A stretch of 64,000 nt of DNA, taken from Haliclystus octoradiatus (lineage: Eukaryota > Cnidaria > Staurozoa > Stauromedusae > Haliclystidae). A program made the position numbers and the translations under genes. The stretch spans positions 10,294,922 to 10,358,921 of the forward strand of contig OU744454.1 in assembly GCA_916610825.1 (NCBI GenBank), read 5' to 3'. Positions 23,901 to 50,746 of this stretch are shown here, one piece after another (position 1 is the first letter of the stretch; each line of letters opens with the position of its first letter). The notes under the pieces were generated by a model, which was not told the origin of the DNA, did not search any database, and saw only the letters and a program-made list of their open reading frames with translations.

Positions 23901-25340
23901 CACTGACTCATCTGGAAATGAAAAGTGTAAAAGCACTTTTAGTAAGGCAATTATGCCATCTGCCTGATTTATTTCAAGTTCAGCAGAATAGTTTTCATTA
24001 TAAGCAATTTAAATGTAAGTTCAAATGGATACACTCTGAAACAGTCGAGTATTCTATAGTTTCTACTAGCTCTGTACAACTTTGGTGCATTCATCATTAT
24101 CTATAGTTAAGATTTTAGGTTTTTCAAATCCACATCTCGTCTCAAATGGTATAAAATATAGAAAATGACATACGACATAGTTTAATATGTAGCCATATAT
24201 TTTTTATGAATTCGTAGTCTGAGGTCATAATAAGAAATTAAATTTATATAAAGACTTCCTCTCTGTGTTGGTTGTACATATGTTCCTTTGAAAGAAAACT
24301 AAAAATATATGAAGTATCAAAATTGATGATTACATGCGGAGGGTAACTTCCATACTTTTGGCACACATGAGCGCTCAAATATTAAAGGATATCAAAAAAT
24401 TCTTTATCATAAAACTTCTAGAGGGATACTTTTTGACGCCTTTGTAAAGTTTTTTGCATAACATTTTTTATGAGTGAATCTGTCCTTTTGAAACAAATAT
24501 TTGGGTCTACATCTTTTTCATGATGTGAAACATTTTCATGGTTATTTTGCCAATTATCTACTGGAACAATGCCGTTGAAGCGCAATGGAGGCTATATATA
24601 TAACTATACGGGTTAACATGATAACAATCAATATATGCTTATGGAGAAATCCGATGCCGAAATACATTGCTTCTTATTTGTATGCATCATTCTAGTTGGA
24701 TTGCAAGCCTTTGCCAGTATGGTTCTAGCAAATGATATCATCTAAATATATTCTAGTATACATGAGTCACAAAGCATGTAACATACTACAATGGCATTTC
24801 ATATTATGACATCTGAGACAGTTAACTTATTTACAAACAATGCTATAATGCTCTGAGAAACCTATCAACCATGATCGAACTGATGGATCGAAAATATAAT
24901 TGAATAGCTACTATTTTTATCACCATGAGGATAGCATATGCAAATGATAAATACAGTTTGTTAAACAGAAGTTGTTCATGAGGGAATTACAAAATGTATC
25001 CAACTTTAGCATGACATCACCTCTGCCATAATTCATTTCCAGAGGCGTATTATGTTGATCAAATATACAATACATAGGCATTTGCATATCTCTCTGAAGA
25101 TGTTGAAATTAGAGAACAACATCCATCCATACTTCCGATATTACTATATTATCTACATTTTAAAAATATCTGTGTTCTGGTTTAGTTCCCGATTTCGAAT
25201 ATTTTTTACAAACTTAGAGTACATCTACGAATGGTTTGGATTGTAGATAAATTGAAGACCTTGGGGCATTGTCTTTAAAGAATAGTCTGCATTTTTGTTA
25301 AGATAAAAGTCTGACAAAATATCCACATGTGTCTTTAACA
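17992..25340. other. Long stretch without a convincing gene
   Basis: Only short open frames under about 105 codons occur, and none shows a motif or paired splice sites. Between 19,770 and 20,300, CAACTTTTG/GTTGAAAAG-type blocks recur in opposite orientation and may mark a decayed MITE. The DNA is AT-rich and otherwise without features I can name. Distal regulatory DNA of the gene to the right could lie here, but nothing shows it. Confidence 0.4.
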
Positions 25341-25523
25341 ATCTTTACAACAGTATTATCTAAAAAGAATTATCAAGAGACAATGAGCTTGACGTGATGT
25401 GGACTTGTATAATACTGGCTGCGCATCACTGATTTTTCATCATAGCAACATTGCATACATTCGAGAGCAGTCACCATTTCATGAGCTTTATTCGTGGTCA
25501 TTTGGTTTGTGAAACACACAAAA

Positions 25524-28500
25524 ATGATAATTATTGCTGTGTTTTCATTTTTATTTCTTCATACAGCAGATATAGTTAATTGCCAAGGAGCAATCGACGA
25601 TAAAATTATATTAAAGGATGGTTTGGTGAAGCAAATTAACATAGATGACAATGGCCAAGAATGGTTATCGTCTGCTTCTGTGACGAAAATTGAAGTTTTA
25701 AATAATGATAAATTCCCAAATTCTGATATACAGTCATGTCGAAAGACACCTACTTCTACGCCATCTTCTGGCAGCATAACATTTAAAGAAATTGCTCAGG
25801 TAAGAATTCAAAAATCTTTCTGTATTGTACACATTTAAATTAGTTACGATTATAGAAATGCGCAAGTTGTAGATATATAGGCTAGAATGTTATGTCACAA
25901 TAATTCATTTCAACTGAAAAATAATAACGGTTGAATAATTTTGTTTCCTATTAAAAATTATTCCAGCTATAGGATCCATTTTTAGACATTAAGTCATTCA
26001 ATTTCCTTATATTTTTTATGTACCGTTGGTAGTTTGTACTCCGTAGAACGTTTTGTTGTTGATGATTAAGCTAATTAGACCGAATCTATTGTTCGAAATT
26101 GAACGCATCGTTGCCAACAATATAATCGGCAGTAGCATCGTAAACGGAAAGTAATTCCTTACCTAACAATAGATTCATTATTAGTATTCTAGACAAAGCA
26201 AATGCAACGTCTTCTGTTATATGATTGTGCTTGTCCAAGATACAACGTGCCGAATTTTGTAAAAGTCATTGGAAATACGCCAGTTTCACCCTATTATATG
26301 ACTAGGTGTTGTTCCATTAATAGATATGTTGTTTTTAAACGATTATTGATGTATTTATTCCGTTTTCTAATTAATTAATGGTTTCCATTTATCAATAATA
26401 CAAACACGGCGATTTATATTTCATAATTCACTAAAGCTGTATACGGTATATATAATATATATAATCTGTAATCAGATTAAATTGCCTGATGATCACCTTG
26501 GCGTGAAACTAATAGTAGCAAATATGAATGTCTGATTTTTTCGTTTATTAATTAAAATAGATAAAAGAATCCTTAATTATTCCTTTAATTATCACTCACA
26601 ACTCAGCAGTACAGTGTGAAACAGTTTCAGTTACCAACTCACGAGCAGTGAAAAATTGAGCCAGGAATATGATTAAATTAAGGTTAAATGAGCTGAAATC
26701 TATATTTAATGTGACTTTTCTATGGTAATATTTCAGTGTTTATATACATATTATTATTGTTAATTATGAGTTACAGAGAGCTCTACTTATCATAGCCACA
26801 CTGAAGTCTTCAAGTGTAAATGATTTAATTTTGACATTATCGATAATGACAATATTGATACCGGTAATGACAATAGGTGGCCGAAGGATTTGCTACCAAT
26901 TGTATATAGTTTGTAAATGTTGTCAGATTGATTCAGTTCAAGATGGCTAGTCTGAGTTGGCAGCAGCATCGCTGCATGTAGCCCCTGTTGAGCCTGCAGC
27001 TGATAGTCTTTAGAATGCACATGCTTTGTCTAGACATATTGCGTCTGACAATAGTAACAGGAATAGCTCCAAAACTGCACTGCGGGGGTAGAAGTAAGTA
27101 TTGTGATTCACAATGGCCATTAAATGTTCTGTTTTTTTTATCCCATTTGGTGTAATTAACATAAACTGTTTACCTCTATTGTCACAAAAGTATTTCGATT
27201 ACTTCAAGGAATTTTAGTCATGAGAACTTGAAAATTTCTTCCTAATATCATGTCCAGAATCATGCATGACGCAAAGAGAACCTCTAAGTCCCAAGTTGAA
27301 ATTTATAGGCATATTTTTGAAGAGCTCTTTCCTGGGGATATGTAATTTATTGAAATACTAAAATCAAATCAATGCTAATCAATCTATGATAAGGTACAGA
27401 AGCGGTGACAGGAGTTGGTCCCTAGGTTGTTCCACTACTTTCGAGAGGCGATCCATCAAAAATGGTTTGGCACGCCTGAAAGTACAGCAATTGATTTTTG
27501 ATAGACATAAAATTGAAAGTACGGCTGATTCAGGCGTACAACACTGAGAACAGCGGTGGTTTAGTACAGTACATTCCTAGATTTTGAATAAATCATAATT
27601 GTGATCACATTTGAGTATTCTTTGTCATTTATTTATTTTATCGAAAATAGAATAATCTATCCCTATATCATATGCTCTTTTCCATCATTTTAATATGAAA
27701 AGTATATTAATTATGTCTTCCCTTTACAGATTTCAGAACAGAATGTCCCTGCTCTTTTCCCAGGATGCGGTAAACCGGGGCGGTAAAGTTAAAAAAAAAA
27801 AGCAACTGGTACGCCACTCTTGATTCGACGTATAATCCGACTTTTTTACTTTTCATGTCGGTCGACTTTGTACAGCGTACCAAAAAATGTTGGTAGAGCT
27901 CATGAAAGTACAGCGTATAACCTAGGGGTGATACTGGCAACCACATGACCCCTATAGCCGCTAAGGAAATGTGAAATATTTCCATATTGGTTTGAGAATT
28001 AATAATATTTAATCCTATTTTATTCAGTGCGTGCTGGAAACTTATTATTCCGCTTTTGATATCATGGGAAAAACCAACTTTTCAAATTTGCTTTATCCTA
28101 TTTCTTATTGATCTTTTCAATGGCATTTGAAGGAGACATTCTTAAATTAAAGTATCCCAGCCATTCCATTTCAAATAATAACACTGCAGTGCTAAACAGA
28201 CTACTCCATACATTAAACATTAATTTCAACTATAGATCCGTAATATATATTTAGGATAGAATATAATCTGGTTGCTAATTAGCAGTTGCAGACCCCCAAT
28301 AGGCTGCTGTTTTAAGGGAAGACACATGCAGTTATAGATGTAATAGTAATAAGCTATGTAAAACGTTGTCTCACTGATTGAACATATATATTTTTTTTTT
28401 TTTTTGGATTTATCATTTTTCCACGAACCGGGTAAGCTTACAGCTTTTTTTCACCGGGGTGTTTGGTTAATTTGTTAGTATTTTGAAGCTTGTGTGCGTT

Positions 28501-31500
28501 TAATAGCCGGGTGCCTTTCCTGACGCCAGCCTATCGTGCTCCGGACAGGGATTGAACCCGAGACCCGTGGTCCAACGCCCTAGCCACTACACCAAGGCCG
28601 TGAGGGCTCAATGCAAAATATAGCAGAGCTTAAATAGTAAAAGTCAGAGAATCAGACAGTCATGTTTGCTACTTGAAGTTTCACGCCGAGGCGATCATCA
28701 GTCTTATTAGTAATAAGCTACATATAGATGAGCTCAACTGCATCATAAACTGCACATGGACTGCACAATCGTCTTGGGTTGAAAGAAAAGGAGTGCATAC
28801 CCAAGTATGTCAAAACTGTTGAACTGAAATTTATTTGTTTTCATTTTTATTCCAGGCAATTGGCATTAAACATCAACATCGATTAACAGATCCAATTGCC
28901 CCATCCTGTACTTTTGATAAATTTCTTAAAACAGTCAACTCGAGTGCAGTGCATCGATTGAAAGGGCAGTACTGTGATCCTGATCATGCGACTGGTGGCG
29001 TTGCATCTGGTGATTATGACAACGATGGATATATCGATCTGTTTTTCACTGTCTTCAACGGCAACAGCGTCCTCTACAGAAACAATGGTAGGTCACATCA
29101 GACAAGTACATGTTTATGGCCATTAGCCTTCTCCAATACTGCTCAGTGAGCGAACAAGGAACTGACTTCAGTATATACTTAGGTCAAGATGAGTTATCAA
29201 TGTGGTAAAAATATTCATCACATGAAAAAACATCAGTGACATACCAGAGTGCTCAAACTACCGAAGTAATGGGCAATGTATATACAATAAATAGAGTTAC
29301 GTTAGCCTGAATCACAGAATGTCCAAGACGTTTGAAAACCCAAGGATTGCAGGCCAGTGTGTGATGTGGAAGGAGCTGATTACCTTACAGATAAGAAAAC
29401 CTTTGATCTAATATTCATGTCTGAGTTTCTTATCACGTTTTCTGTGATAATTTACATTTCAGGTGATGGTACGTTCACTGATGTCACTTCCGAGACAGGT
29501 GTAGGACCCGTGATGTATGGTAACGGTGCCGGATTTTTTGATGCTGACCAAGATGGTGATTTAGATCTCTACGTAACAACCCTGGGTGACAATCGTCATT
29601 ATCTCTATATTAATTACGGTGGTCATTTCAAAGAGGAAGCAATGCTAAGATATGCTGATTTAAAAGCACCCAATAAAAGGGCATTAGGTGGAATGACACC
29701 CAACTTTGGAGATTATGATAATGATGGGTATTTAGATATTTACGTATCAGAAGTAATTCGACATGACTTTGGTTATGGACTGGTAAGATTTCTGTAAATT
29801 ATTGAAGCAATATTAACCTGCCAGAACTAGATAAATAATCCAAATTTTAGAACTCCATTGTGTTAATATTAAACCATCCAGCTATGAACTAATATATTTA
29901 ATACATAATATGTATCATGTTAATTAATCTACTTTTCTATATACAGTAGTAATCATGACTCACATATTTTACAGCAGAAATAAAGTACACTGCAGCTTTT
30001 TATAATAATAATAATAATAATAATTGAGCTTCGCTAATAAAGTAATTTGTCTTCGATCGTATCTTCACTATAGCCATCGAGATCAAGACTGTTGCACAAT
30101 CGAGGAGCAGCCAATCCAGGGTAAGCGTTTTATTGGATGCATTATTGTTATTACGTTGATTGCTAAACTCTTATTGAGATAGTTTGAGAACATTATGTGA
30201 TCAATGAGGGTCGATAAAGGATATAAAATAAAACCAGTTCATGTTAAATTAATTTCAATGTTACAGTTTGCAAGGGAAAATGTATCATATATAAAATAAT
30301 GCACGGAGTACTGCAGTACGGATTTGGAAAGTGTCTTCAAACGATCAGTCTGGTTGCTTAATTTGAAATGTTACATGTTTTATGTGCATGTTTCAAGTCA
30401 TGCAGACGCGAGAACATCAATTCTCATAAGACATCTTCCTAGAACTTTCTGATTGATTCGAGGTCGTTATATTCTTGCTTTGAGCTGGATATTATCCATT
30501 CTAAATATGTGGTTTGAAATGCAATTCCATTGAGAATATTCACGAAAACGTTAATAATGGAAGCAAATTTGGACGTTGGTTCAAATGAAATCTCTCTTCT
30601 AATTGTGAACGCGAAATGCTTTGATGTAGTAATTTGCCTTTCTGATTCTTTATCATATTTTCTTCAGATACTTCGAAGACATGACAGAAATTGCCGGCGT
30701 TAACTTTGATAATGTATGGAGTGTAGTCCCGAATCCTGTGCACGTTGCAACTTTCACATTTGGTTCTTCTTTCACGGTAATAAGTACAACGTGTGTCAAA
30801 TTACTAACTTTTGTTGCAAATATTTATACAATTGACAATACTGTGTATTCATTCTACTTTGTAATATTGAAATTTGTCTCAAATGATGCAATATTTCGAT
30901 ATGCATCGATCCTGTTAAAAAGTCTTTTTTGATTTTGAACAGGATTTTGATAACGACGGCTACCCAGAATTACTTATTTCTGCTGATTTCGACCAATCAC
31001 GCTTGTTCTGGAACAATAAAGATGGTACCTTTAGAGAATGCACTTTGAACTGTGGTATCAATCAGAATGGTGATAACGCAATGGGTCTTGCTATCGGTGA
31101 TTTCAACAATGATGGCAAACCGGATTGGTTTTCATCCGCTATTTATGAAAATATGTCTACATGCGGTCCAGCTGGTAACTGCGACTTTCCTGGCACCGAT
31201 GGAAATACATTATACATCAACAACGGTGATGGAACATTCTCTGATGTCACTGCAAAGGTAAGTGGCCTGAATAAGCACAATGAAATAATTTCCTTTAACA
31301 ATAATTCCGGTTCCGTTTTTAATATCAGCTATTTATATACTGTCTATTTTCTGATCTCATGATTATTTTCTTCCACAAAAGATCACTCACACTATACTAA
31401 TCAGGATAAAATTATAAAATGAATAGTAGATAAATAAATTACATGTAATCTATACAACAACGTATAAATTAGCATAGTATAGTCCCCCTAATAAACAAGC

Positions 31501-33106
31501 AATTGCGCTTAAGGGGTGCCTACAATCACGTAATTATGTCTAATAATTATTTGATTGAAATATATATTCATTCATGTTCATTTATTTAGGCTGGAGTGGC
31601 TAATGGTGGATTTGGTTGGGGTGCTGTTTATTTTGATTTCAATAATGATGGCTATTTGGATATTATTCAAACTAATGGTAAGCTACGAAAATCATATATG
31701 TATAAATAAATGCTCAGATGGTTATCATCAAGATTCATTACACGCAATATGCTATGTCATATTTTACTCTAAGCATGGCACTATCACTCGTTATCAGCTG
31801 AACATGCAATAAAAAAGGCATAACAGAGAATTCCCATAATCTAGGTTGGTTTTCTCTATAACATATGATATTTATTACGTTTTATAGGTCTGGCAAAATC
31901 CTTTGGTACATCCAAGTTTTTTTACGAAAACATGCGATTGTTTGAGAACACTAAAGTTGCATCTCAACCTGGAAACGTATGGACAATGAAAGAGGTAGGA
32001 AAAACATTAGCAAAATTGGTCTAAATACCTCTAAAACCTAAAAGACTACCTCCTGGCCAATCATTATAAATGTCTCAAGGTTGTTTGATCTTTTAAATAG
32101 ATAATGTTTTGTAAGTTGTGTGATAAATACTAATAATTATAATCAATATAAATAAGAATAAATGAAAGACTACAGATTTTAGTACTGCACCGAAATGTCT
32201 AGTCTTTGGCTTATATATTTATATTTAACGCTCTTTCAACTGACACCGAGCATTGTTTTACTGCTATTAGATAATATCTAATACTCAAATAATCAATAGA
32301 AATATTATTAAAATCATTAAATTCACAAAGATGCTTTTGTTAATTAAGAGTACACGAAACAGTAGATAGGATGTGTAATTAAGAAATGAATAATCTGTTA
32401 TTAATTATCGTAAAATTCATGCAGACATCTTGTTGTTGTTTTTTTTATTCCAAACTTTCATTATGCACTATACTGGCACCGTTTGTGATAGTGTTCCAAT
32501 TTATGTAATTGTTTTAGGCGGCTGTACAGTATGATATGCATTTTCATGGACAAGGAAGAGGACTTATCAAAGTTGATTTTGATAGTAAGTGTAGTAAACT
32601 TATTATTAAATTGTAGATGAATAATAAATATTTTAGTATAAATTTAGATTACATTTACCTTTGATCTGAAATGAGAAAGAGATACTGGATGCTCGTTGCA
32701 GCCCACAAAGCGATGAATACTATATGGGGAATACTGTATGATATGAATCCTTCCCATGTTTGATTGAATAATATTAGAAATGCAATGCAAAGGTGTTCCA
32801 AAACCTTTCGAAACTTACTACTGGAGCATCACAAATACCTTTCAAAGTTTTAAATCCTCCTAATCCATCCAAAGCAGTTTTTCTCTTCAATTAACTACTA
32901 TCTCGTTCATGCTTCTAATAACTTTTACCATTACCATTTTAGACGACGGTGATGAAGATGTAATTGTAGCTGCCAACAAAGGACATGCACAAATATTCAG
33001 AAATGAAGGCGGTAACCAAGGAAATTGGCTCAAAGTCGTAGCAAAGAATCGGTAATAACATAAATACTACTTACAAATTCTAATTGCGTCAACAAAAAGC
33101 ACTCTG

Positions 33107-33138
<32 letters not shown>

Positions 33139-36100
33139 ACTGTTTTTCATTTTGTTTTTAGTTGTCTTCAAAATTCTAATAAACTCTGTGAAAGTTACGG
33201 CGCAGTCATTACAGTTGTCCATGACAGCGGGAGACAACAGGTTAGTAACTCAACTGTGTTGCATAAAAATGTATTAATAGTCATGTTAACATACATTGTA
33301 ACTAATGATTTATTATTTTCTTAATTGTTGCTATTAACTAACATTTATTTTTCGAAGAACACATTTATGACACTAGTATAAAAGTAGTTAGTGTCGTTAT
33401 GATATGCATAAAAATGATCATATACTATCACTAACCTTATTTGTCGCATTAGATGCAAGAGGTAGGCTCAAGTTCTCACTATCTTGGCCAGAGTGAACGC
33501 GATGCACATTTTGGTTTGGGTTCTAGTTCAAACACTGTCACAGTAACTATCAAATGGCCTGCCCAGAACGTCATGCTAACCGTTAACTTGGTACCTGTTA
33601 ATACTGTACTCAGAGTGGTTCGCCCTGCAAGGTGAGTCTATAGTTGATCAAAAACATAAACATTAGCTGTGATATCATGATAGATAATTTCAGGGATAAT
33701 TTAATTGTATACTATAGTAATTTGTAATCATTGTTTTCCTATTTTAGCACTCAGCAAGTTTCATATGTTCAGCTCAATCAGTGCCCACAGTTTTCAATTC
33801 AATCTGTCACTCAGCAGGTATTTGAAGAAATATTATTCGTAATGGTGTATATTATATGTCATCACAAATTGATACAAAGACATGATACTAACTCCTGGAC
33901 TATTTCGTATCAACCATAACCATATCAATCTTCGCAAAAAGTGCATTTTGTCGGATCGGAAGGAATCGCTTAGCTTTGCTTAGCAACATCCCATATATCA
34001 AGTTACCGTCCTTTCGTGTCAGCCGTCAGGGAATCACCGCCCATGTAGGCGTCCAGGGAATGCCTCCTTGAAATTCTTGAAACCTTCTAATCCAGTCTCC
34101 ACCCATACCATTATTATAACAATTGTACCGCTACTTCCAGCCTACTACGAAAATATGACGTCCTGACGATGAACTTTCATTAACAGGTCGTTTTCTCAGT
34201 TATTGTTTTCGTAAAGAATGAAAGCAAACAGTAGATGTGGCACAATCAGAAATTATAAAAGTCTGACGGTTGTTCTTGCCCCTGTTGCACCCCTTGGATC
34301 CACCCCTGTTTCATGTTTTGTTTTTGTATTGAAATTGAATTTGTTCTGGTATGGTTGCATGTTTTGGATTCTTTAGCGGATTAAGGCATGCTTCTTAGAA
34401 GAACGGATTAGATCCGTTAACTGAATGCATACTTGATTTATTCCATCCTTAGCCGCAAGGCATGGTAGTTGAAGTCAGTGCAGACAAACGTTCACTGTCC
34501 CTGGTAGTCGCTGATAACACGAATAACGTCGATATTGGGTTAAAGACTTTCCAATACTCCATCACTATGTCACCAAATCCAAATGAATTGGATGGATTTA
34601 TAAAAACAGCAACAGTGACCCTTGATCTTCGTGCCTCCAAGTTCAGTGGATGTCCCATGGCTGCAGTCCATTCAGTTACTGATGAAAGGTATGCCGAAAA
34701 TAAAAACTATCATCAAATCTGAACCGCATTTATGCAACAACATATACGGTATTCGTTTTTGAATACCTAGAATCAATTATTAAGTAGATGCATGGGCTCA
34801 ATCAATTTAAATGACCACAATATGACATTGCAAACGTGCCAACTGAACATCCATATTATTCTATATATCAAACATTCGGAATTTTCAGACCTTAAGCAGA
34901 TTATTTAGCTTTTTCACACTTATTTCTCCTTGGTGATGTCTATTTATTGACTTTTTCCCCATTGCAATTTTTACAATTAAAGCCTTAAGTCAAACTATTG
35001 TTTAAATTGAAATTCTTATAATGAATCAAATATAATAATTATCAATATATTTAATTCATTCAATTTCATAGACGATTTGATGGTATTTCAAATAACAAAG
35101 CTCATCTCACTTGGGGTTCACCAAACACTGAACTGAAACGAGTCGCACCCAGTGATTATTCTGATGGGGTTGAAATGCCTGCTGGTGGATGTGGTTATGC
35201 TAAGATCTCACAGAATGCATGTCCCTATCCTAAACATTACAGTGGATACGGATCCACAAGACCATCGTCTAGACACATCAGTAACACATTGTTTGCTCAG
35301 GTAAGCAATATATTAAGTCAGTTGGAGCTTTTACTTGTTAGATGTATTATTTTAGAACATAAAAAGGTTTTGCTACGAATCTTTCTTGCAATCTGATTGG
35401 TTAACGCCTATGAAGCTGTCTCACGACATCAAGATGGTAAAAACAAAAAGGAACAAAAACCTACGAAACCATATTTTCAAAATGGCTGACCGCAGCTTCG
35501 AAAATTGAAATTCAACATGCCAAGCAACTCTCACCTTAGCTTTCATCTTGTAATTTGTTTAATATAACATATATAGATTGATGGAGACTCCGGATAGAGA
35601 ATTGGCACTGACAAATCATTAACTGTCCCATAGCGTAATTTATTGTCTAATAACTCAGGTTTGGTGTTTGTGTTGCAGCCGAAGAGCATTCTTAGCGCAA
35701 GAAGAATGAATGATATGACAATGCATTTTGGTCAGGTAAAAGATTAAATTATGAAAAAGGCAAATTGACTATTTGGACGTCTATACATTCCTTTTTGATC
35801 TATGTACTGGCAACTATTGCATTTCAGATACTTGCGATGCTGTGCTCACATAGGCTGATTTATCCTATAAGTTGGATTCGAATTTTTTAAAGCCAAAAGG
35901 CAAGGGAGGATGTTGACAATGTGAGATAAATCACATTTCTTTTGAGTTGCGGATTAAATGCCCCGAATCCAATTGTACTATTCCATCCGCGATCACAACA
36001 ATCATCTCAATTCAAATGGTTTTTAAGGGTTCACGGGTTGCCATATGCTTCATCGTAAAATTCCTGCAAAAATGATGCTGGGAGACACGAGTAAAGCGTA

Positions 36101-39100
36101 AAGAATAAACGAGCCACATTTGAAGTTATTCTATTTTCCCGAGTGTCGGACAACATCCCGAGTGCAGGAATTTGCGACGGAGCATGGTGAAAGCGACTGA
36201 AGAACGTACTTATTTAACTAAAAATAAGTCAAGAAGGTTGTGACTTATAATTTAAAAAGATGTGTGCCAGCAAACACTAGATTGCAATTAACATTATCGG
36301 TTGAGATGGTTAAATAATGTACTTTAAAATTCAATGGATGTCAAATAGAATTTCTCGTTTTCATTAGTTTTTCAGTCATGATATTGATCTTACGGTTGAG
36401 CTGCCGAAATCCACTCCAGAAGTTGTGCCAAATGGAATATGGATGCAAGTTGCTGTTCCAAAGGTATGACAGTCAAAATTTCACAATTTTTGTATAATTA
36501 AAAAGAGGAAGTGACAATATTGGAATCATAAGAGTTAGTGTATCATTGTTTTGTAATTTGGTAGCCAGAACATCGTTTCAATTTCCTTACATTACATTAG
36601 AGGGAATTAGAGGGAGAAATATGCCTGGAATATTCCTGCTTATTAGCATAAATTGAGTAGTACAGAAATCTGCTAATATCTATTCCAGGTATTACTGGTG
36701 AGAAAATAATGTAAACATTTTGTTCTAAAATAGACACCGAAAGACGACATATCTGAAGTGTGTTATTTATAAAAGAGATATTTCATATTCTAATCTTATA
36801 TACCATAATCGAGCAATGTGTATTTATTTATTTATTTTGAGCTGATATTTAATTTATGTATTTCTATCTCTTTTAGGGTGACACATATTTTGACCCAATG
36901 CGTACTGGCAACAAATATCTCACATTTCTAAGATCAGTATATAATAAGTACGTGAAGCTAGTAATTGTGTATATTGTATGTATAGGAAATGATCACAGTA
37001 GTGAGCTGTAATTCATATTCAAGTAAATACTCCATTACTTAGCGCTTCATGTCCAATTAATGTTATCATCATGATCGTCATCGTTTATTGATGAACCTGC
37101 TAAATTAACATTAACTTTTTTCGCAGGACTGATTATAAAACTAAGCTATCTGATTACTAAAGTAACAAACATAAAAAACTTTAAACCGCAACATCAATAC
37201 AAACTTTAAACAAAATTAAGAGCCAATGTTTATATCATGGTATTTAAATGCTTCTCAAGAAGACATTTGTCCGTCTTGTCACGCACAGATCAAAATACAG
37301 ATAAAATATTTATAAAGAAGGGTTCTAATGATCCGTCTATCTACTTGAACATTTCTGATTTTCTTTAACAACAACTCTGCTTAATAGGGAGTTCATCTAG
37401 CCCATGATCTGTAGTGGAGAAAATAAAGATATAGAATCTGTATGATGAAGATACATTTTGAAATAAGCTGCAAGGACAAAGGACTTGAGGGGCACGACAT
37501 TACGCCAACATATATATATATTGTGCTTATTTCATTTAGATCATAAAAATGCCAATAGTTGCTCAGCTGAAATAAACTGTATTTTTACAAATTTCAATTG
37601 TTTTCAATTCAAGATGTTCAGCAGTTTATCCAACTGGTTTACCACGTCAACAATTGAATGCAATTACATCTTTCATCGATGCTGGCAATGTCTATGGCTC
37701 AAACTATGCAAGAAGTCAAGAATTACGTTTACATATGAATGGAAAAATGAAACAGGGAACAGATGGAATTCTACCAGTAAGTTGTCACAAAGGAATACCT
37801 CATGTTTTCAACTCATTCAACACAATTCATTGATTAGATTTTAATTTATATGTTGTTTTTGTATGATAGAAAAATGTCAACCGTATTCCAATTGCCAATC
37901 ATCTTAATCGAGACGCTGCCCATCTTTACATGGCTGGTGATGTCAGAGTAAATGTCCAGCCTGGTTTAATGGCCATGCATTCATTGTTTGTAAGGGAACA
38001 CAACAGACACTGTGAAGAATACATGAAAGACAACCCAAATGTACGTATCACAACTCACAACACCGTATTCAATATATCCAATGAAAATATAGGCCGTTAT
38101 ACAAACCTAAATTTAAACACACATTTTCTATATAGTTGGGAAAAAAATTAACGTAACTTATTATTTGTATCATTTTATCTATAGGCAAGTGATGAAGAAA
38201 TATTTCAATATGCTCGTCGTTTTGTCATTGCTGAATTGCAATCGATAGCTTACAATGAGTATCTGCCTTCTTTATTTGGGGGAAAGACCCACATTCCTGA
38301 TTACACAGGATACAAGGTTGATACTGATCCAGCAGTCGATCACTTGTTTGCTACTGCTGCTTTCAGGTAAGAAAAATAGTAGATGGGATCACCTTCTGTT
38401 TCGACCAACAGTAGCCTGCGTCCAGACTAAAACGTTACTTAAAGGAAAGTGTAAATTTGCAAGCTAGGTCAACAGCGAATCAGCCACAAAGCGTAAATAT
38501 AAATGATGAACAAAATGTATGGATAAATAACATTGTCTTCTCACAAGGGAGCCTTCAAGCTGTTCTTCAAATGAAACTAAATCTTTCTTGTCACAGATAG
38601 ATATATTACATAGATTTCTGATGCTTCGTAACGTGCTGATAATGTGGAATGTTATCGATGATCATGTCTTAATCAATATGAAATTATAGTGCATTGAATT
38701 TACAACCGGGAACGAGGAGATGTTAGCTTCGATAGCGGAAGCAGATGATTTCTATATAAGTGTAATACCTTTTCAACAAATAGAGACGAATCATTCTTCG
38801 AACTATATAATTACAGTTTAAATAATTTTATCATTCGCAGAACAGTTAATAATCAACCTTGATTTAAAGTTCTAAGTAAGGGTTACTACCTTGCTACGGA
38901 CCTTGCCATGCACCCCCGGGCATGCACCTTGCTTTGGTCTTATGTATATTACATAAGTATATAATATAAGCCTATAATATTTAATCAGAAAAGATTTTCT
39001 GTTGGTTGTGGAATGGGGAATCTTGTTATGAGGTATACCATTAAGTGGACTATACATGACTCACATGGGATTGTAATAATAATTAGGAGCATATTTATAT

Positions 39101-41473
39101 TTGCATTCCAGGTATGGTCACTCTCAAGTCAACACTGAGCTCTTCCGTCTTGATGCTAACTTTCATACATCTGAGTACGGTCATGCATTACTTCGAGACT
39201 GTTACCATGCACCAGAGAAACTTTCTGACGAAGGAGGTCTCGATCCTCTCCTCCGCGGAATGATGTATTTTCCTGCTCAAGAAATGGACACTCACATGGT
39301 CGATGATATGCGAAACTTGCTTTTCACAACTGGATATAGACAAAGCATAGATTTGGCCGTGTTGAATATCGAGAGAGGACGTGACCATGGCTTGCCTGAT
39401 TATAACACTGCTAGAAAGTTAATGGGATTTGAAGGTTAGTAAACGAATATTTTCTTCCATTTATTTTTAACTATAGTAATTATTCTTGTATAATTTCTAT
39501 AAAAGGGACATCGCCCTCTTGCAATACGAAACGCAAATGTCACAGATTATTCCAAGTAATGACGTTATTACTGATTAATACGACAGTATCAAAACCACGA
39601 GAAACAAGCTATCTCATCCTAGTGAAAATTGTTTTAGTAAAGACAATTTATAATTCTTCTGCTTATAGGAGTGAAAGACTTTTCGGAGATCAGCAGCAAT
39701 ACTGAGGTGGCTGAAAAACTAAAGGAATTATACAAAACAGTAGATAATATTGATTTGTGGGTTGGCGGACTGAGTGAAGATCACGAAGAAGGCTCCGAAA
39801 TGGGAAAAACGTTTAGAGCAATTTTAATGGCAACTTTCTTGCGTCTCAGAAACGGGGATAGATTCTGGTATCAAAACATTATGTCGTCACAAGTAAGTTC
39901 AACTTTTCAAATATCAATGGTCATGCCTAAATATCAATAGAAATAGAAGAGTCATCCGGTCACGGTCGCGGATGTATTCGGCAGGGTGACACCTTCTCAA
40001 TTACATGTAAAATGTTTCAAAATAAATTTCAAAATATGACTATGCTGAAACCAGATGATGATTTGTGTAGCAGTTATAATGATATTGGTAGTTTTTTCTC
40101 TGGAATTCATTGGTAATTTCCGAATATCTGCCTTTGATTTTATAGGAAATCAAAAAAGTTGAGGCGATGACATTAGCTAAAATGATTCAAATGAACACAG
40201 GATTTCAGAACGTACCTTCATTTAGTTTCTTTGCCATGGATAGCTGCAGTGATGTGAAAGATTTTCAATGCGTTAGGAAAGAAAGTGAGGACGTGACTGT
40301 TTTGAAAACTGAAAATGTCGAATTAAAAATGCTGGTGAAAATGTCCCACGCAGACTATTTGAATGCAAAGAAATATTACAAAGAAGCAGATAAAGACAAA
40401 GACGATTTTCAATCACTAAGCATTGGGCTAGGTGTCGTAGCTGGTTTCTTCATTATTTTGAGCTTACTGCTATTACTGGTATTACTAATAAATTTTTGCA
40501 GAAGAAAGAGAGAAACAAAGTCATCCACAAGTAAGAAAAATAACAATGATATAGGCTTACATAATATATATATATCTACTGTAGAACATAACAAGGTTTT
40601 GCTGTGAATAATTCTCGCAATCTGATTGGTTAACGCCTATGAAGCCATCTCGCGACATCAAAGCGGTAAATGAAAACAGGACAAAAACCTATGGAACCAT
40701 ATTTTCAAAATGGCTAACCGCAGCTTAGAAAATATGAAATTCAATGTGCCAAGCAACTCTCATCTTAACTTTTTTCTGGTGGTGTCATAAAGAGAATTAG
40801 GAGAATTACATAGTTGATCAGGGTTTGTAATATCAACAAATGTTCTTAAAAAGCGTACCAAACAGTCACAAGTTGGGGCTGGCTACGTTCTAAACCAAAC
40901 AGTTCACGGAAAGTGTGAACTATTTGTTTAATATCGAACACTTCAAGATGGTGTGATTGCGGATATATGTTAAGCAGCCAATTGTCATATGGTTTACCTG
41001 GTTTAACCCACCTTACAGCAAGAACGTACGAGCAAATATTGACAAAACATTTTTACATCTATTTAATAATACGGCCTGTGTAGTAATGAAGTCTCTTACA
41101 AAAAAATCAACCAATAGAGCCACTTTGACAATCAGATAGTTATTGAAAATGGTCTACGATTATTCACTATGATGATATTATGATCTAATTAGAGTCAAAA
41201 AATATTTTAAAATTTGCACCGGACATAGTTCCAGGCTCTTTTCATTTCTATCTGAGTTTAACAATATGACTTGACAATGGACTCAATGGACATTAATTGA
41301 ATTTTAAATAATAAATAATAGATTTCAAGACGGAGTTTAGTCAGTCTGTTCATCTTTTAACTACCTTTTGTTTTTCTGCTATTTTCTTAGATTACAAGGT
41401 CCATGACAACCGAAGCAGTCCTTCAACGAAGAGTGACCTTGGATCAAGGAATAATGGGTTTGCATACCCTTAA
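25524..41473 (+). CDS. CRTAC-type beta-propeller, ASPIC/UnbV and haem peroxidase membrane fusion protein
   Basis: Twenty-five GT-AG exons join in phase to 1405 codons: 25524-25799, 28856-29087, 29463-29782, 30074-30120, 30668-30776, 30943-31257, 31590-31677, 31888-31994, 32518-32584, 32943-33051, 33162-33240, 33453-33631, 33748-33817, 34453-34688, 35072-35300, 35679-35735, 36368-36463, 36877-36947, 37614-37776, 37870-38040, 38185-38366, 39112-39434, 39669-39892, 40146-40530, 41391-41473. A signal peptide opens the protein. Residues about 93-545 hold FG-GAP/VCBS repeats with calcium loops (DYDNDG, DADQDG, DFNNDG). ASPIC/UnbV covers about 548-643 and a linker about 667-744. The animal haem peroxidase (745 to about 1280) has distal Gln840, His844 and Arg976, proximal RYGH (His1071) and 'LNIERGRDHG'. 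Myeloperoxidase's two haem-ester acids are Ser843 and Val979 here. A helix (1342-1367) and a 38-residue basic tail follow. I infer an extracellular, membrane-anchored peroxidase. It could be two genes, but no stop, poly(A) signal or second signal peptide separates the halves. Confidence 0.88.
28391..28612 (-). mobile_element. tRNA-derived SINE in intron 1
   Basis: On the minus strand the head carries an A box (TGGTGTAGTGGCTAGG, plus coordinates 28579-28594) and a B box (GGGTTCAATCCC, 28548-28559) at tRNA-like spacing. A body follows that includes GGCGTCAGGAAAGGCACCCG, and the element ends in a run of about 15 A (plus-strand T run at 28391-28405). This is the full pol III SINE plan. It sits antisense in the 3-kb first intron of the fusion gene. 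Confidence 0.85.
30003..30024. repeat. (AAT)n microsatellite in intron 3
   Basis: About seven AAT units. Confidence 0.9.
33114..33138. repeat. (AT)n microsatellite in intron 10
   Basis: About twelve AT units lie some 25 bp before the acceptor of exon 11. Confidence 0.9.
35355..35555. repeat. Dispersed repeat in intron 15, related to 40,582-40,785
   Basis: Two stretches of about 200 bp in introns 15 and 24 of the fusion gene align in the same orientation with scattered substitutions and small gaps. They share blocks such as GCAATCTGATTGGTTAACGC and CCATATTTTCAAAATGGCT. This is probably one family of short mobile element, inserted twice. Confidence 0.75.
36039..36190. repeat. Small inverted repeat (MITE-like) in intron 16
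   Basis: A block at 36,039-36,095 containing AAATTCCTGCA is repeated in inverted, diverged form at 36,138-36,190 (TGCAGGAATTT). Together they would form an imperfect hairpin. Confidence 0.5.
40582..40785. repeat. Second copy of the 200-bp dispersed repeat, in intron 24
   Basis: This aligns with 35,355-35,555 in the same orientation. It lies next to the left arm of the inverted repeat at 40,795-40,937. Confidence 0.75.
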
Positions 41474-42833
41474 CGGATTTATTATTTTAATGTACTGCTT
41501 GAATCACAAAAAAGTTGATAAAATGGATCATTACAGCGACAATTCAATCAGCGTTGATACATCCACATACTTCGTATATAGTTTGTGTTCCGTACGCCTC
41601 CGGATTTGCTGGCCAATGAATTAGCGTATTTTTCACTATCTCATCAATCTAGAATTAATATTAGCACTTTTTAGAGGTTTAAATGCATACACCAACTCAT
41701 CCAAAGTAATTCAAATTGTATTTATTTTATCAAGTAGAAGGTAAATTTTCAAAGAGTGTATGACCAAATTTATATTAATAAAGGGAACAGATAAGTCTGA
41801 AATGTCTTTTGTTTAGGAGTAATAATTTCGTCTCGCCTACAAGAGTGTGCGTGTGATTTGTAGCCAATATGAGAAAGGATTGCTCGTTGATGAGGGTTTC
41901 CACTAGACAAAAGTTTCGCTGCAACAAATTTTCCAAGGATGAAAAAGCTAATACGCATTCGTAGTGTGACGCACAAGCCACTCAGGATCAGCATTGACAA
42001 TTGGCTTCAACGAAATTTGTAGTAGGAACTGTTCCTATTTCTTTGCGATTCGCTTCGGCGAAAGATAATCAGAACCAATCAGAACACAGCATTAATGTTG
42101 TCATAGTATCGTTATGTTTGTTAAACCTGTTCCACATGCCCTCTGTACTCCACTTTACCAACTGCCCTTTCGTATAGGAATAGAGTAGCGGAATAATGGG
42201 CCTTGTGGAGCTAGGCTATATGTTTGTAGAAATTTCTTTGATTATCGCAAATATTCAACAATTATTGCCCCTTTATATAAGTTTATATTTAATATGATTT
42301 TGCAAACAATAATTTTCTATCAAACAATTTTTTTAAGTACAGATTAAATACAGGTAAACAGATTTACTTGACATCGTCTCCTGAATTCTTAAATGATTTT
42401 CAGATTAAAGTATTCTGATTCAAATTCATCTTTTTTGCCAAAAGAATTATCTTCTCTGCTTCCTTTTTCAAATTAATTCTTATCCCAAAACGCTTGATAT
42501 ATGAATTTGATTGAGTTTTTTTTATATTCGAAGCAGTACGGATATGAAACATTTGCAGCCACAAAAGCATAATTAATTTACAAAACTGTTGTATGAACTA
42601 CCAACAGAAACATTGAACAAAGGAATTTTATAGACTAATATTTAATTTATGATTTTTTTCGCCTTCTCGTTTTCTCCTTACGTGCCTCTCGTGGTGCTAT
42701 CAGAGCATAGTTAACGGAAAGTATGAACTATTTGGTTTAGAACATAGCCAGCCCGAGTTGTGACTGTTGGGGACGTTTTTTCAGAGCATTTTTCTGATCT
42801 TTCAATCCACGATCAAGTATGTAATTCTCCTAT
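40795..42833. repeat. Inverted repeat pair enclosing the last exon of the fusion gene
   Basis: The left arm (about 40,795-40,905) and right arm (about 42,720-42,833) are inverted copies of about 115 bp at roughly 75-80% identity by eye. They share GGAGAATTACATA, AACAGTCACAA and GGCTGGCTACGTTCTAAACC blocks. Exon 25 (41,391-41,473) and the poly(A) signal lie between them. The arms may be the ends of a 2-kb transposon or two separate insertions in opposite orientation. Confidence 0.6.
41777..41782 (+). terminator. Poly(A) signal of the fusion gene
   Basis: An AATAAA lies about 300 bp after the TAA stop at 41,471-41,473. It is the first one downstream of the last exon that I noticed. Confidence 0.5.
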
Positions 42834-45800
42834 TTGCGTTTTCTGCGTAAAGCTAATTGGCGTTTTAGTTGACGTTCATAACTTCATATTGAGCTTTTAA
42901 TGATGGCGATGGCGGTTTAAACTTTGCAGTTTCCAGATTTTGTAAGAGTGAAATTGTTGGAAACACAATGTAAAATTGTTTGAAATGATGGAATCAGTAC
43001 AGCTTCATATGCAACAAAGTATTTATATTTATGAAGAAGATATATTTAACTGAGATGAGATGGATAAGTGAAAATATTCAAGTGAGTTTGTCTGAATTCG
43101 AACTGACACGAGTTGACATAAGCCTAGCGCGAGTTGAGATTCTTTTCTTCGTTATTGGCGTTGATTTCTTCATATTCTAATTCCCCATTTTGCCTCAATA
43201 GCAAAATAAGCAATACCTTTGAGTCAGTTAGTTAGTTAATTTGTATGTGGGTAATATTGCGAAGATGTTTGTGCGATTTTATGGTCGCACACCTCACTTC
43301 ACACAACAAGCATAGGCCTATTATAATTTTCTAAGGGTTAGGCGAAATTCACAAGCTTTGTTAAAAAAACATCATCGTAAGAACATGATACATCATCATT
43401 TATCCAGAGCCTTCAAGTTTGAATTAATTATTTTTCCATAGAGCAGAGACATTTGAGCTTAAGATCAATTTTGCTTCTTAAAAAGTCATTAACAGACACA
43501 ACTGCCTCGGACTTTGCTGAAATACTCTCGGGAACTACGTAAATATAATAGTAAAACCAATTTAATATAACACAGTATCACACGTTTAAGGGCCATCCAT
43601 GAAGTACTCAGAGAGTCAGAGTCAGACTGGACCCTCCCTGTATTCAGCAGTACACTTTCAAATAACCCGCCTACCTTTCATGTACGCCAGGCTACTTGCA
43701 AAGATTCCCCCTCTTCTCACTAGTCTCTGCTTTTGTTGTTGTGGTTTGAGCAAGCAAGGCAACAGATTATTTAAAATTGCTGATTAAATTGCTTGAGATA
43801 GATTGTAGAGCTTTTGTTACTCTTCGTGTGCCTCCAGTGCCAAACCTTTTCAGGGATGATTTAAAGATACATCTGTAGGCCTACTGTGATGATTGGTACC
43901 CCTCCACCTTGTACCCGCAACTGTACGCTTGTGATGTAATTTCCGAAATCTCCAATAACGAAATATCACCAGCAATCGTCTGCAAATTATTAGTGAAACG
44001 TAATTCTGTTGCCCCAAAACATTTCCAGGGAACACTCTTTCTTCTCAGGGGTGCAATCACCCTTCTCTGCAATCTGGTTTAGGCCTATTATGACCGCTGA
44101 TTATTTCACATTGAATTTACATCCTACACTATTTACATCCAGAAGCGGATAAAAATTGATATTTTTTATGATTCATAAGCCAAACCTCAGCAGAAAATTC
44201 ACATTTCTTATTTATAAGAGCAATTACCGGAAGGCTATGATATTTCACATAAAACTAAATGCAAGAAGAAGTAGGCCTAATTCATCATTTATGCTTTTAA
44301 ATACACCCTCAAAACGTTTTATTAAATTTGACTCCTGCAACCTATTGTTTCCCGCTACATAAGATCAGACTTTTCATTAGATATTGAACAACATCATATT
44401 TTGGTTGTAATCATACTTCAAGTTCTTTCAAAATTTCTGACGGAATTTATAGAAAGAGCGCTGGATTTTTTCATGAAATGTATCGTTAAGTTTTATTATT
44501 GACTTTCCTTCCATGCCAAGTTGTTGCTGTTGGCCAATTTTTTTTTGGTTTAAATGATATTTTCTTTGCAAAAGTATGTCTTGGAAGCCATTATCAGATT
44601 GGTATCAATCTTGCAGCATCTTTTAGCATGCATTAAAGATGTTGTCATTGAGGCGACCATCATCCATTTCAATTAGCTATCAAAAAAGACATAACTAAGT
44701 TAATGATCTGTCCATTCTACACATCACACATGTCACAAGAAACATAACAGACCAAATGGTTACTCCTGTGAGAGATTGTTACAAATTCAACTTGATAATG
44801 TAGTACCTTCCTTCATGCATCGATAATACATGTATGCGATTCATGTTGAATGGATTTCTGATACCTGTAATGCAGTTGAGCCAATTTACACCTCGCTGGA
44901 AAGCTTCAGATTCAGGTCTTCACATCTGCAAATGACAATTGATTGTTTCATTGTTAACATAGTGTTATATTCAAGCTTTCTAGCAAAATTTGGCCCTCCC
45001 TGTAAGCAGCAGTACATTTTCAAATGACCCCTGGAGGCTATCTGTTGTTTCTACTTATTCTATTTATCCACTCTTGACCTCCTTGTTGGGCCAATTTTTT
45101 ATGTAAATTATTCTTGGTTAGTGTGGATAGATTAATGTTGCAAATTTTCGAATTTCAGGAGAAGTCAACTGCGTAGCCTCCAGATGTCGCTATGGTGTAT
45201 TCTAGATTATTATGTGTGTCATTAGTTGGGTCTGTTCTAAGTTTATGATATACAACTATTGATTATAAGATTATTGACTGTATAATATTTGCTGCTTATA
45301 TTTGATCATTATTAAATGGAGTGTGTCATGTTTCAAATGCATCACTTGCTACAAATTATCATTCGACTAATATATATTTTTTGTTCATATTCACTTGTAT
45401 TTGAAATAATAGCTAGATATAATATTTGAAATGAAATTCTATGGTACAGTTATAAATGTTTGGAGGTCATAGTTTTCAAAGTTACAATTCTTTGTTGCCC
45501 TTCAGAAAATTGAGATCATTTTTAGATTTTGTTGTTGTTTTGTTTCCCAATTTTTTCAGGGGCCGTTTGCCCGTTTCAGGATTTTTTCAAGGGCTGTTCT
45601 CATTGCTTGAGGTTTAATACTGGTTTGTTCTATTTGACCAGATTCTATTATGATGGGATTACGTTCCAGTTCCAGAGTACTGACTTCATCTTCTTCCAAT
45701 TTTTCAACTGATGCTACTACTGGATTGATCCATTTCAAATTATTAATCAAAATCCGTGATCCATGTTAAAACGAACAATAAAAGGATTGATCTCTTTGAT

Positions 45801-48800: not shown

Positions 48801-49050
48801 AAATGAGGAATAACAGTTCAAAATATAGGTATTTGACATTTCCAATGTTGATATACAAAGTAAATAGATTCTTACATAAAACAAATTAAAAAAATGCACC
48901 GGCTCTTAAACCAATTTGTAGTGTCAGCGGAGACCGGACAAAGGTCAAGCAACACCAATTCGGAACAAATTGTTTAAGCACGTTTATTGTCTAGCTTACC
49001 GTCTTGAGCCTGTTCTCTGCAATAGAGAATTATATTCTGTTAGAAAAAAT
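42834..49050. other. Repeat-rich stretch without a convincing gene
   Basis: Four items stand out. GCCTTCTCGTTTTCTCC... at 42,661-42,693 recurs inverted at about 47,808-47,840. An approximately 90-bp block containing CTCGTGTCAGCC occurs at about 46,061-46,146 and again at 46,269-46,356. A block with CCCTCCCTGTA...CAGCAGTACA occurs at about 43,629-43,675 and 44,993-45,029. At 46,720-46,870, GGTAGGCGGGTTA-type motifs in both orientations end in TTGTAAACAGGGCC, which looks like a transposon terminus. A 64-codon minus-strand frame (45,750-45,556) has a coding-like composition but no recognised family. Confidence 0.45.
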
Positions 49051-49563
49051 ATGGAAGATAATGCCAATGCTTGTGTTTATTATTTTTCCTACGGATCGAA
49101 CATGAATCCTGATCGAATGAGAAGCAAAGGAGCACGTTTTACAAGCAGAGAACTTGGCAAACTCTCTGGATATCGTCTCTGTTTCAATAAAAGATTCGAA
49201 GCAGATCCTAGATACTGTTTTGCAAACATTTCCATGGCTGATGAAAAAGATTCTGTATTTGGAGCTTTATATTCATGTACAAGCACTTCATTGCAACTGC
49301 TCGATTGTTTTGAAAAGGTTTCTGAAAACCATTCTGCAAGACATAAAGTTCAACTCGAATTGGCCAATGGGGAAGCTGTAACCGCAATAACATATATTAC
49401 GAATGAGAAATTCATTACGGAAGGATTGTCTATTCCATCTGGTTATATGAAACATATATTAAAAGGAGAAGATATCCTACCAAGTAATTATACAGAGTTT
49501 CTGAAAAGATTTAAAGTCGTTGAGACGAATGAAGGAGCCAATAACATGTGGAGCTCATGCTGA
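49051..49563 (+). CDS. Gamma-glutamylcyclotransferase-like protein, tandem copy 1
   Basis: This is a single-exon gene of 170 residues. The start is the first ATG of the frame. The fold signature 'YFSYGSNMNPDRM' (YGSN at 14-17) binds the gamma-glutamyl moiety in GGCT enzymes. 'VFGALY' (69-74) and 'LDCFEKV' follow, with Glu88 at the position of the catalytic Glu of human GGCT. The family releases 5-oxoproline from gamma-glutamyl peptides or amines in the cytosol. The length is close to the usual 160-190 residues. The C-terminus is about 12 residues longer than in the two neighbours. AATAAA lies at 49,755-49,760. It is the most diverged of three head-to-tail copies, about 0.7 kb apart, all without introns. 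The exact substrate cannot be read from sequence. Confidence 0.85.
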   Translation: MEDNANACVYYFSYGSNMNPDRMRSKGARFTSRELGKLSGYRLCFNKRFEADPRYCFANISMADEKDSVFGALYSCTSTSLQLLDCFEKVSENHSARHKVQLELANGEAVTAITYITNEKFITEGLSIPSGYMKHILKGEDILPSNYTEFLKRFKVVETNEGANNMWSSC

Positions 49564-49760: not shown

Positions 49761-50269
49761 TGATGATGGTGATGATGATGAACTCGTTCAGTTTTATAAT
49801 TATTTTGTTTTGAAATTTGCTTGCAAGCGCTAATCTTTGTCTGTCAGTTCAAAATAGACTTGAATCTTAACATGGATCGAATACCTTCGTCTTCGCCTTC
49901 TTCAAAGAATTCTACTAATGCCAGTCTAGCATGAAATTCAAGACGAATAAATAATTCTATGAAACTGTAATGTCTTGAATACTTCCCTCTATTTGATTCA
50001 GGAAAATATCAACAATAGTGACAACAGCGTTATTATTTGAAGTTACTATAGAATGAAGGGAATTATGTAAACATCAAAGAGCCTTTGGAATTGATGCACA
50101 AAGCAATCTTCTCTTGGTTGGCTGGACACCACAACATGCATGCACTTCTGAAAATCAAAAGTAATTAAATAAACAACGTTTCAAATCACACATTTGCAAG
50201 AATTTCCTAAATTGTAAGAAGCTAAACGTGTCCGTAGCTACTAGTAAACGACTTTTATAATCGTCCAAA

Positions 50270-50746
50270 ATGAGTGAAATCAACTCGAGTGTATATTATT
50301 TTGCATATGGCTCAAATATGAACCCTAAAAGAATGCAGAATCGTGAAGCAGAGTATTCCAAGAGAGAGCTGGGTAAAGTTGCTGGTTATAGATTGGATTT
50401 CAATGTGCGTTCGGCTATAAAACAGGTTTGTCATGCAAATATTACACGAGGAGAATGCACAGACTTCGTATTTGGTGCTTTGTACCATTGTTCGAACTCA
50501 ACATTGGAGAAGTTGGATCATTTTGAAAACATTGTCGAACATCAATACGAAAGGGATACAGTACCTGTTGAGTTGGTCAATGGCCATGTTGTTATGGCAA
50601 CTGTTTATGTCGGCGGGAAAAGCTACCTCACTGAAGGACTTCCAATCCCATCCTGGTACATGGATCATCTTCTCAAAGGACAAGATATACTTCCAAAGGA
50701 ATATACAGAATTTCTACAGCACTTTGAAGTGATAGACGATGTTTAA
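50270..50746 (+). CDS. Gamma-glutamylcyclotransferase-like protein, tandem copy 2
   Basis: This single-exon gene has 158 residues. 'VYYFAYGSNMNPKRM' opens the fold (YGSN 13-16). 'FVFGALYHC' is at 67-73 and 'KLDHFENIV' supplies Glu86 as the likely catalytic acid. The C-terminal 'GQDILPKEYTEFLQHFEV' matches the other two copies. The ATG at 50,270 is preceded by stop codons in frame and gives the same N-terminal length as copy 3. It lies 706 bp after copy 1 in the same orientation and has its own poly(A) signal at 50,880-50,885, so each copy looks like an independent transcription unit. Confidence 0.85.
   Translation: MSEINSSVYYFAYGSNMNPKRMQNREAEYSKRELGKVAGYRLDFNVRSAIKQVCHANITRGECTDFVFGALYHCSNSTLEKLDHFENIVEHQYERDTVPVELVNGHVVMATVYVGGKSYLTEGLPIPSWYMDHLLKGQDILPKEYTEFLQHFEVIDDV

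Follow-up and report, generated by a model that had tools for sequence, protein, structure and literature searches.

Does the 64,000-nt stretch of cnidarian DNA analysed here (the window) encode a single protein in which a calcium-binding propeller is joined to a haem peroxidase, and, if so, what are its relatives and what might it do? Exon bounds, assigned manually by reading the bare sequence of region 25,001–43,500, define a gene at 25524–41473 (+) with 25 exons summing to 4218 nt and encoding 1405 aa. All 24 introns (11,732 nt summed) are GT–AG, and the joined 4218-nt frame contains a single stop, at its end. These independently set bounds agree exactly with the initial annotation, which had described 25 GT–AG exons in one frame of 4218 nt with a single terminal stop. 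The features of the gene are as follows:

Exon 1, 25524..25799 (+): signal peptide, about aa 1–20; N-terminal module, aa 22–74, with conserved ND and Cys72; propeller start
Exon 2, 28856..29087 (+): propeller; calcium loop DYDNDGYID
Exon 3, 29463..29782 (+): propeller; two calcium loops
Exon 4, 30074..30120 (+): propeller
Exon 5, 30668..30776 (+): propeller
Exon 6, 30943..31257 (+): propeller; two calcium loops
Exon 7, 31590..31677 (+): propeller; calcium loop
Exon 8, 31888..31994 (+): propeller; best identity 28%
Exon 9, 32518..32584 (+): propeller; start of the seventh calcium loop
Exon 10, 32943..33051 (+): end of the seventh calcium loop
Exon 11, 33162..33240 (+): ASPIC/UnbV start
Exon 12, 33453..33631 (+): ASPIC/UnbV (whole domain aa 569–635)
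Exon 13, 33748..33817 (+): linker; Cys655, invariant across the seven rows of alignment A1
Exon 14, 34453..34688 (+): linker; weak likeness to the C-terminal half of a Big_9/cadherin-like Ig domain
Exon 15, 35072..35300 (+): peroxidase start (RRFDGISNN)
Exon 16, 35679..35735 (+): peroxidase; distal Gln840
Exon 17, 36368..36463 (+): Ser843 (at ester Asp94 of MPO), distal His844, calcium Asp845
Exon 18, 36877..36947 (+): peroxidase
Exon 19, 37614..37776 (+): peroxidase; calcium loop TSFIDAGNVYG
Exon 20, 37870..38040 (+): catalytic Arg976; Val979 (at ester Glu242 of MPO)
Exon 21, 38185..38366 (+): peroxidase
Exon 22, 39112..39434 (+): proximal His1071 and its Asn partner
Exon 23, 39669..39892 (+): peroxidase
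Exon 24, 40146..40530 (+): peroxidase end, stalk, membrane helix near aa 1347–1365
Exon 25, 41391..41473 (+): cytoplasmic tail and stop; weak conservation, best identity 23%
Possible poly(A) signal AATAAA, 41777..41782 (+): 304 nt past the stop

Other features were observed elsewhere in the window:

48922–49560, 50261–50743 and 51413–51919 (+): three tandem gamma-glutamylcyclotransferase-like (GGACT/AIG2) open frames
60311–63064 (-): 918-aa open frame with a MULE transposase domain
11438–14980 (-): apparent remains of a LINE-type element, with a weak reverse-transcriptase match below the cut-off and companion frames without Pfam matches
59618–60070 (+): C2H2 zinc-finger frame

The protein is organized into a signal peptide, an FG-GAP propeller, an ASPIC/UnbV domain, an An_peroxidase domain and one membrane helix, in that order. 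Pfam matched FG-GAP_3 in five stretches (3.8e-45), UnbV_ASPIC at aa 569–635 (6.2e-14) and An_peroxidase at aa 745–1272 (2e-145), the last over profile positions 2–523 of 530, nearly the whole model. Seven D-x-[DN]-x-D-G calcium loops lie in the propeller, a number that would fit a seven-bladed fold, and hydropathy reaches maxima solely at residue 2 (signal peptide) and residue 1347 (a strong helix, membrane). Pfam and hydropathy together agree with the earlier description of a signal peptide, calcium repeats, ASPIC/UnbV, a full haem peroxidase and a membrane helix. By eye, the tail encoded by exon 25 resembles the [DE]LG-x-x-N of P0001 and P0002. NCBIfam gave no match for any of the four proteins run, and Rfam and tRNA searches of the 64,000-nt window returned no matches. 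Codon counting places the probability of 1405 stop-free codons at ~5e-30; since the exons had been picked as open, homology is the better argument.

Propeller and peroxidase belong to one intact cnidarian gene. Homologues of the window protein align end to end (alignment A1), and three of them are complete: P0001 (1391 aa, on a contig of 4432 bp), P0002 (1384 aa, 4611 bp) and P0241 (1385 aa, 4444 bp); whole frames on contigs of mRNA size favour one mRNA. Compared per exon with up to seven cnidarian-clade homologues, 21 of the 25 exons reach a best identity of at least 35%, the weaker ones being exons 8 (28%), 13 (25%), 14 (31%) and 25 (23%), with 13 and 14 forming the disputed linker. No AATAAA or ATTAAA occurs between 33,178 (exon 11) and 34,699, hence none in intron 13; intron 14 holds two such sites, at 34,699 and 34,976, and a stop lies directly upstream of exon 14 in its frame. 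The initial annotation had named a separate signal peptide before exon 15 as a mark of two genes; hydropathy revealed no hydrophobic leader within exons 13–15. Its reading of one fusion gene is upheld by homologues that span both halves, Hydra and Clytia database proteins among them. That two adjoining genes, one CRTAC-like and one peroxidase, were wrongly joined across exons 12–15 might be argued from the weakly conserved linker exons 13 and 14, the AATAAA after exon 14 at 34,699, propeller-less relatives with their own leader in Oculina (P0246) and Orbicella (P0250, leader by eye), and four loci, among 80 from prokaryotes and all of them from Verrucomicrobia, where a separate peroxidase gene directly follows a CRTAC sequence, but it is rejected as highly improbable on the three homologues whole on mRNA-sized contigs, the Hydra and Clytia proteins covering both halves, and the lack of a poly(A) signal in intron 13 and of a visible leader in exons 13–15.

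The N-terminal module (residues 22–74) and the linker could together make up a single Big_9 Ig domain that the propeller interrupts, an idea that is only suggestive. Of eight joined segments, two matched Big_9, below the cut-off, and the window's own did not; hhalign gave a 54% probability with the C-terminal half alone, and the linker appears weakly Ig-like. Two relatives with related features were also observed: P0220, a eukaryote-like protein of 1255 aa, has a Big_9 domain ahead of its peroxidase, and P0247, a fusion relative, has the N-terminal module and, by eye, an apparent remnant of ASPIC, with no propeller match, as if the propeller had been lost.

The architecture, for which the initial annotation knew of no described protein, is not unique: it recurs with the same domain order in several cnidarians and outside Cnidaria. 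Both the propeller and the peroxidase profile match 17 of 353 sequences (348 database proteins, the window protein and four PDB pieces), 12 of them cnidarian and five other. The earlier proposal had been to look for the VCBS/ASPIC and An_peroxidase pair in other genomes; the window protein is no orphan. The cnidarian carriers comprise the window protein, two from Hydra, those of Clytia, Actinia, Actinostola, Orbicella and Paramuricea, and four more placed in the cnidarian clade. Hydra, Clytia and further relatives have the complete fusion; it is represented by partial models in Actinia, where the model stops inside the peroxidase, and in Orbicella, Actinostola and Paramuricea, whose propeller sequence is limited to 325, 128 and 120 aa, respectively. 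Outside Cnidaria, the carriers are P0006, P0125, P0127 and P0128, all probably protist, and P0190 from Durusdinium trenchii; P0006, P0128 and P0190 are incomplete. Judged from these carriers, the fusion constitutes a family with members in both hydrozoans and anthozoans, filed in databases as 'Peroxinectin', 'thyroid peroxidase-like' or 'uncharacterized'. Because the cnidarian relatives P0246, P0247, P0249 and P0250 carry the peroxidase with no propeller match (P0248 is open at its start), the propeller is apparently dispensable for some roles.

The protein searches covered the best 120 of 6962, the best 120 of 583 and the best 120 of 317 matches. Among the best 120 of 317 from the profile search, bacterial-looking proteins rank below the cnidarian rows, with bacterial P0244 among the cnidarian ones. 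Known members P0190 (a piece of which was in the query), P0006, P0125 and P0127 are absent from these matches listed, so their silence on bilaterians, sponges, ctenophores and other protists is weak evidence. No description of a propeller–ASPIC–peroxidase architecture was found in the open-access literature, a scope that most subscription journals fall outside, and the available parts of PMC5080974, PMC3390340, PMC12225738 and PMC7563517 do not describe it.

Phylogenetic analysis of the two halves links the cnidarian proteins to the protist-like ones. In a 50-row peroxidase tree (without the long-branched Dictyostelium PoxA and P0250, with P0220 added and bacterial-type rows thinned from 49 to 24), cnidarian and protist-like rows unite with support of 100/99 beside bacterial enzymes, and a quick tree of 76 rows also joins them (SH-aLRT 82). 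P0220 falls in this clade, its own position weak (89/40), and the nearest row to the window peroxidase is that of Paramuricea, an octocoral (95/90). For the propeller, a 58-row tree, which excludes P0102 and five rows outside 300–620 aa, groups the cnidarian with the protist-like rows at 89/92 among bacterial CRTAC proteins, and a 35-row tree, which keeps 21 bacterial rows and leaves out P0026 and P0064, does so at 83/93. Both halves seem to point to the same history, the propeller half with only moderate support, and the closest relatives of both cnidarian halves are probably the same fusion in probable protists.

These relationships raise the tentative possibility that an ancient bacterial-type CRTAC–peroxidase fusion with non-ester haem moved between single-celled eukaryotes, dinoflagellates included, and a cnidarian ancestor, the direction of transfer being our inference, and that Cnidaria added the membrane anchor and kept the fusion in hydrozoans and anthozoans. 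Independent assembly of the cnidarian and protist fusions from similar bacterial-type domains is a rather unlikely competitor. Its precedent is a separate FG-GAP and peroxidase fusion in planctomycete-like proteins; in addition, an alternative tree that groups the cnidarian propellers with P0014, P0018 and P0022, all bacterial, is compatible with the data (p 0.16, 35-row set), and a C-terminal membrane helix is found in none of seven protist-like rows (P0190 being cut off before that point). Against it, cnidarian and protist sequences come together in the trees of each half (100/99; 89/92; 83/93) and have the same domain order and the same loss of both ester residues. The planctomycete-like proteins themselves (P0132, P0138, P0174 and P0176) carry FG-GAP, with no ASPIC, plus peroxidase, and form a separate fusion event in the trees.

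A scan of prokaryote loci with two peroxidase peptide patterns gave at least 553 loci, of which the best 80 were kept. Both domains occur in one frame in none of these 80, and a prokaryotic fused ancestor was rejected on that count. Viral carriers were likewise set aside, with one locus among 64 pattern matches, at 32%, and exon 1 had no match in a phage collection. In 4 of the 80 loci, all from Verrucomicrobia MAGs, a haem peroxidase gene is immediately preceded, on the same strand, by a CRTAC1-family sequence:

L031, 2575–6475: CRTAC–peroxidase neighbours
L036, 2102–6032: CRTAC–peroxidase neighbours
L035, 1–3379: CRTAC–peroxidase neighbours
L024, 3–2330: CRTAC–peroxidase neighbours (CRTAC fragment)

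The three long CRTAC neighbours score 172–181 bits and the L024 fragment 29 bits, and the loci are alike by eye. This neighbourhood has the same order as the cnidarian fusion and is a hint at most.

The catalytic center was compared residue by residue, using MPO mature numbering (Gln91, Asp94, His95, Arg239, Glu242, His336 and Asn421). The equivalents of Gln91, His95 and Arg239 are kept in all 17 cnidarian and all seven protist-like rows, proximal His336 in 16 of 16 cnidarian rows reaching that far and Asn421 in 15 of 15, both again in 7/7 protist-like rows; P0005 and P0251 are cut off, short of the proximal His/Asn region. The two carboxylates that form haem esters behave otherwise. Asp94 is missing in 16 of 17 cnidarian rows (kept in Rhopilema P0249) and Glu242 in 14 of 17 (kept in the coral rows P0245, P0246 and P0250), so that both are missing in 13/17 cnidarian rows, in 7/7 protist-like rows (P0220 included) and in none of 205 other rows, some of which are only presumed bacterial and which exclude P0005 (cnidarian) and P0220 (eukaryote-like), counted in their own groups. 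Those 205 rows have Asp in 198 (six gaps, one Asn) and Glu in 204 (one Asp). Both carboxylates are present in four T9SS-type bacterial rows, two arthropod rows, two MPO rows and 8s6c, and PoxA lacks the ester Asp only. The window protein has GQFFSHD and RVNV instead of GQxxDHD and RxxE, with neither ester carboxylate. By sequence it has the An_peroxidase fold with distal Gln–His, Arg and proximal His–Asn of the peroxidase–cyclooxygenase superfamily, and it lacks the ester carboxylates GQxxDHD/RxxE that mark this superfamily outside families 4 and 7.

The available text of PMC4420034 presents the superfamily as unique in its modified, ester-bound haem, and that of PMC5787809 reports that redox potential tracks the number of haem esters; for PoxA, with its one ester, it describes efficient oxidation of iodide and thiocyanate, poor oxidation of bromide and none of chloride. 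With neither haem-ester carboxylate present, the window enzyme probably holds haem b without ester bonds and at low potential, and oxidation of chloride or bromide would be unlikely. Haem state may vary within the family, as Glu persists in three coral rows and Asp in one from Rhopilema.

A membrane helix near the C-terminus was found in 13 of 14 cnidarian rows scanned. We moderately favour a type-I membrane protein, namely a propeller-targeted cell-surface peroxidase with probably non-covalent haem and one-electron or easy-halide chemistry, its targeting and chemistry being predicted from sequence. The secreted ectodomain would be anchored by the single helix, with the peroxidase membrane-proximal and a short cytoplasmic tail; the propeller and ASPIC domain would offer an integrin-alpha-like surface for a matrix, cuticle, symbiont or cell-surface ligand, and binding would hold the anchored peroxidase at the ligand site. 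Local H2O2 could then feed one-electron oxidations, such as tyrosine cross-linking of matrix or glycocalyx, or alternatively iodide/thiocyanate oxidation yielding mild antimicrobial oxidants. The earlier suggestion that the propeller tethers or targets an extracellular peroxidase stands in part: the enzyme is predicted to be membrane-tethered with the propeller as its likely targeting module, and 'tunic' as a target is inapplicable because the host is a cnidarian. A catalytically silent adhesion or receptor protein with a mere peroxidase fold would agree with the lost ester residues and with an integrin-alpha-like propeller plus membrane anchor, but the catalytic residues are conserved across the family, which makes this reading improbable.

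Comparison with known systems sets the cell-surface peroxidase apart from named families. Hydra 'Peroxinectin' V9GVG1, LOC100209490 and uncharacterized proteins of Clytia and Actinia share its domain order at 43–45% identity and do not differ in kind, the architecture being unnamed in their records. Like CRTAC1 and the bacterial CRTAC1 family, the window protein has multiple FG-GAP blades followed by ASPIC/UnbV, and bacterial members P0007, P0009, P0014 and P0015 show 39–44% identity over 36–41% of the query. CRTAC1-family proteins typically end at ASPIC or EGF and are secreted; CRTAC1 has no peroxidase, whereas the window protein continues with a peroxidase and membrane helix. Peroxidasin, MPO/LPO, DUOX and arthropod peroxinectin share the catalytic fold and residues (compared for MPO), and MPO and two arthropod rows keep both ester carboxylates. 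Among peroxidase domains outside fusions, the bacterial-type ones come nearest, both in trees and in PDB comparisons, and they may belong to Family 6 (peroxidockerin); relative to peroxidockerin, the window protein has no dockerin (E 0.001), adds the propeller and membrane helix, and has lost the ester Asp/Glu. Peroxidasin (family 2) has LRR and Ig domains, for which the window protein has no Pfam match at E 0.001; DUOX (family 7) combines an NADPH oxidase domain with a peroxidase without proximal His, whereas the window protein lacks that domain and has His1071. For arthropod peroxinectin (family 3), the two arthropod rows, which include no crayfish peroxinectin, lie apart from the cnidarian rows. 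Dictyostelium PoxA also lacks an ester Asp; according to the available text of PMC5787809, it keeps the Glu ester and is secreted, with no propeller in the solved chain, unlike the membrane-anchored window protein.

The half initially labelled an 'animal' peroxidase groups with bacterial and protist-like enzymes, and MPO and the two arthropod rows stand apart from the cnidarian rows in the 50-row tree, these being the only animal families in the peroxidase trees (no peroxidasin, Duox or true peroxinectin row). Holding the cnidarian rows with the MPO/arthropod rows is rejected by an AU test at p 0.042, a value barely under 0.05 from a test that was set after the trees were seen. In comparisons with PDB entries, the window peroxidase reaches 399.5 bits against 8s6c (a lactoperoxidase by its deposited name, sitting among bacterial rows in trees), as compared to 297 for Dictyostelium PoxA and 249 for MPO. 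The propeller matches solved CRTAC1 (9etn) only distantly, at 75 bits, and the propeller trees include no animal CRTAC1 row. For the cnidarian domains, bacterial families look like closer kin than CRTAC1 or MPO do. Uptake of a CRTAC1 domain, within the animal lineage, by an ordinary peroxinectin or peroxidasin of animals is unlikely: relatives are filed as peroxinectin or thyroid peroxidase-like, and the window protein contains KGD at 872–874 (PKGD in 15 of 17 cnidarian rows), but the bacterial-type 8s6c scores far above MPO, the peroxidase tree and AU test point the other way, the CRTAC1 match is weak, and the GD of KGD is common to at least 131 of 209 other rows, which leaves KGD as weak evidence for integrin binding.

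Beyond the initial annotation, the more interesting point, as read from the sequences, is the kinship with bacterial and protist proteins together with the loss of haem-ester residues. An enzyme with complete catalytic triads and neither ester carboxylate would broaden the correlation of redox potential with ester number reported in PMC5787809. A cell-surface haem peroxidase behind an integrin-like propeller constitutes a gene family without a name of its own in hydrozoans and anthozoans. The available parts of PMC9578555 and PMC7563517 report, respectively, coral peroxinectin-like genes that are under selection and heat-responsive, and sea fans that induce peroxidases against fungi; these genes and peroxidases can now be checked for family membership. 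If the fusion did move between single-celled eukaryotes and a cnidarian ancestor, it would represent a separate peroxidase class common to corals and to algae like those living in them.
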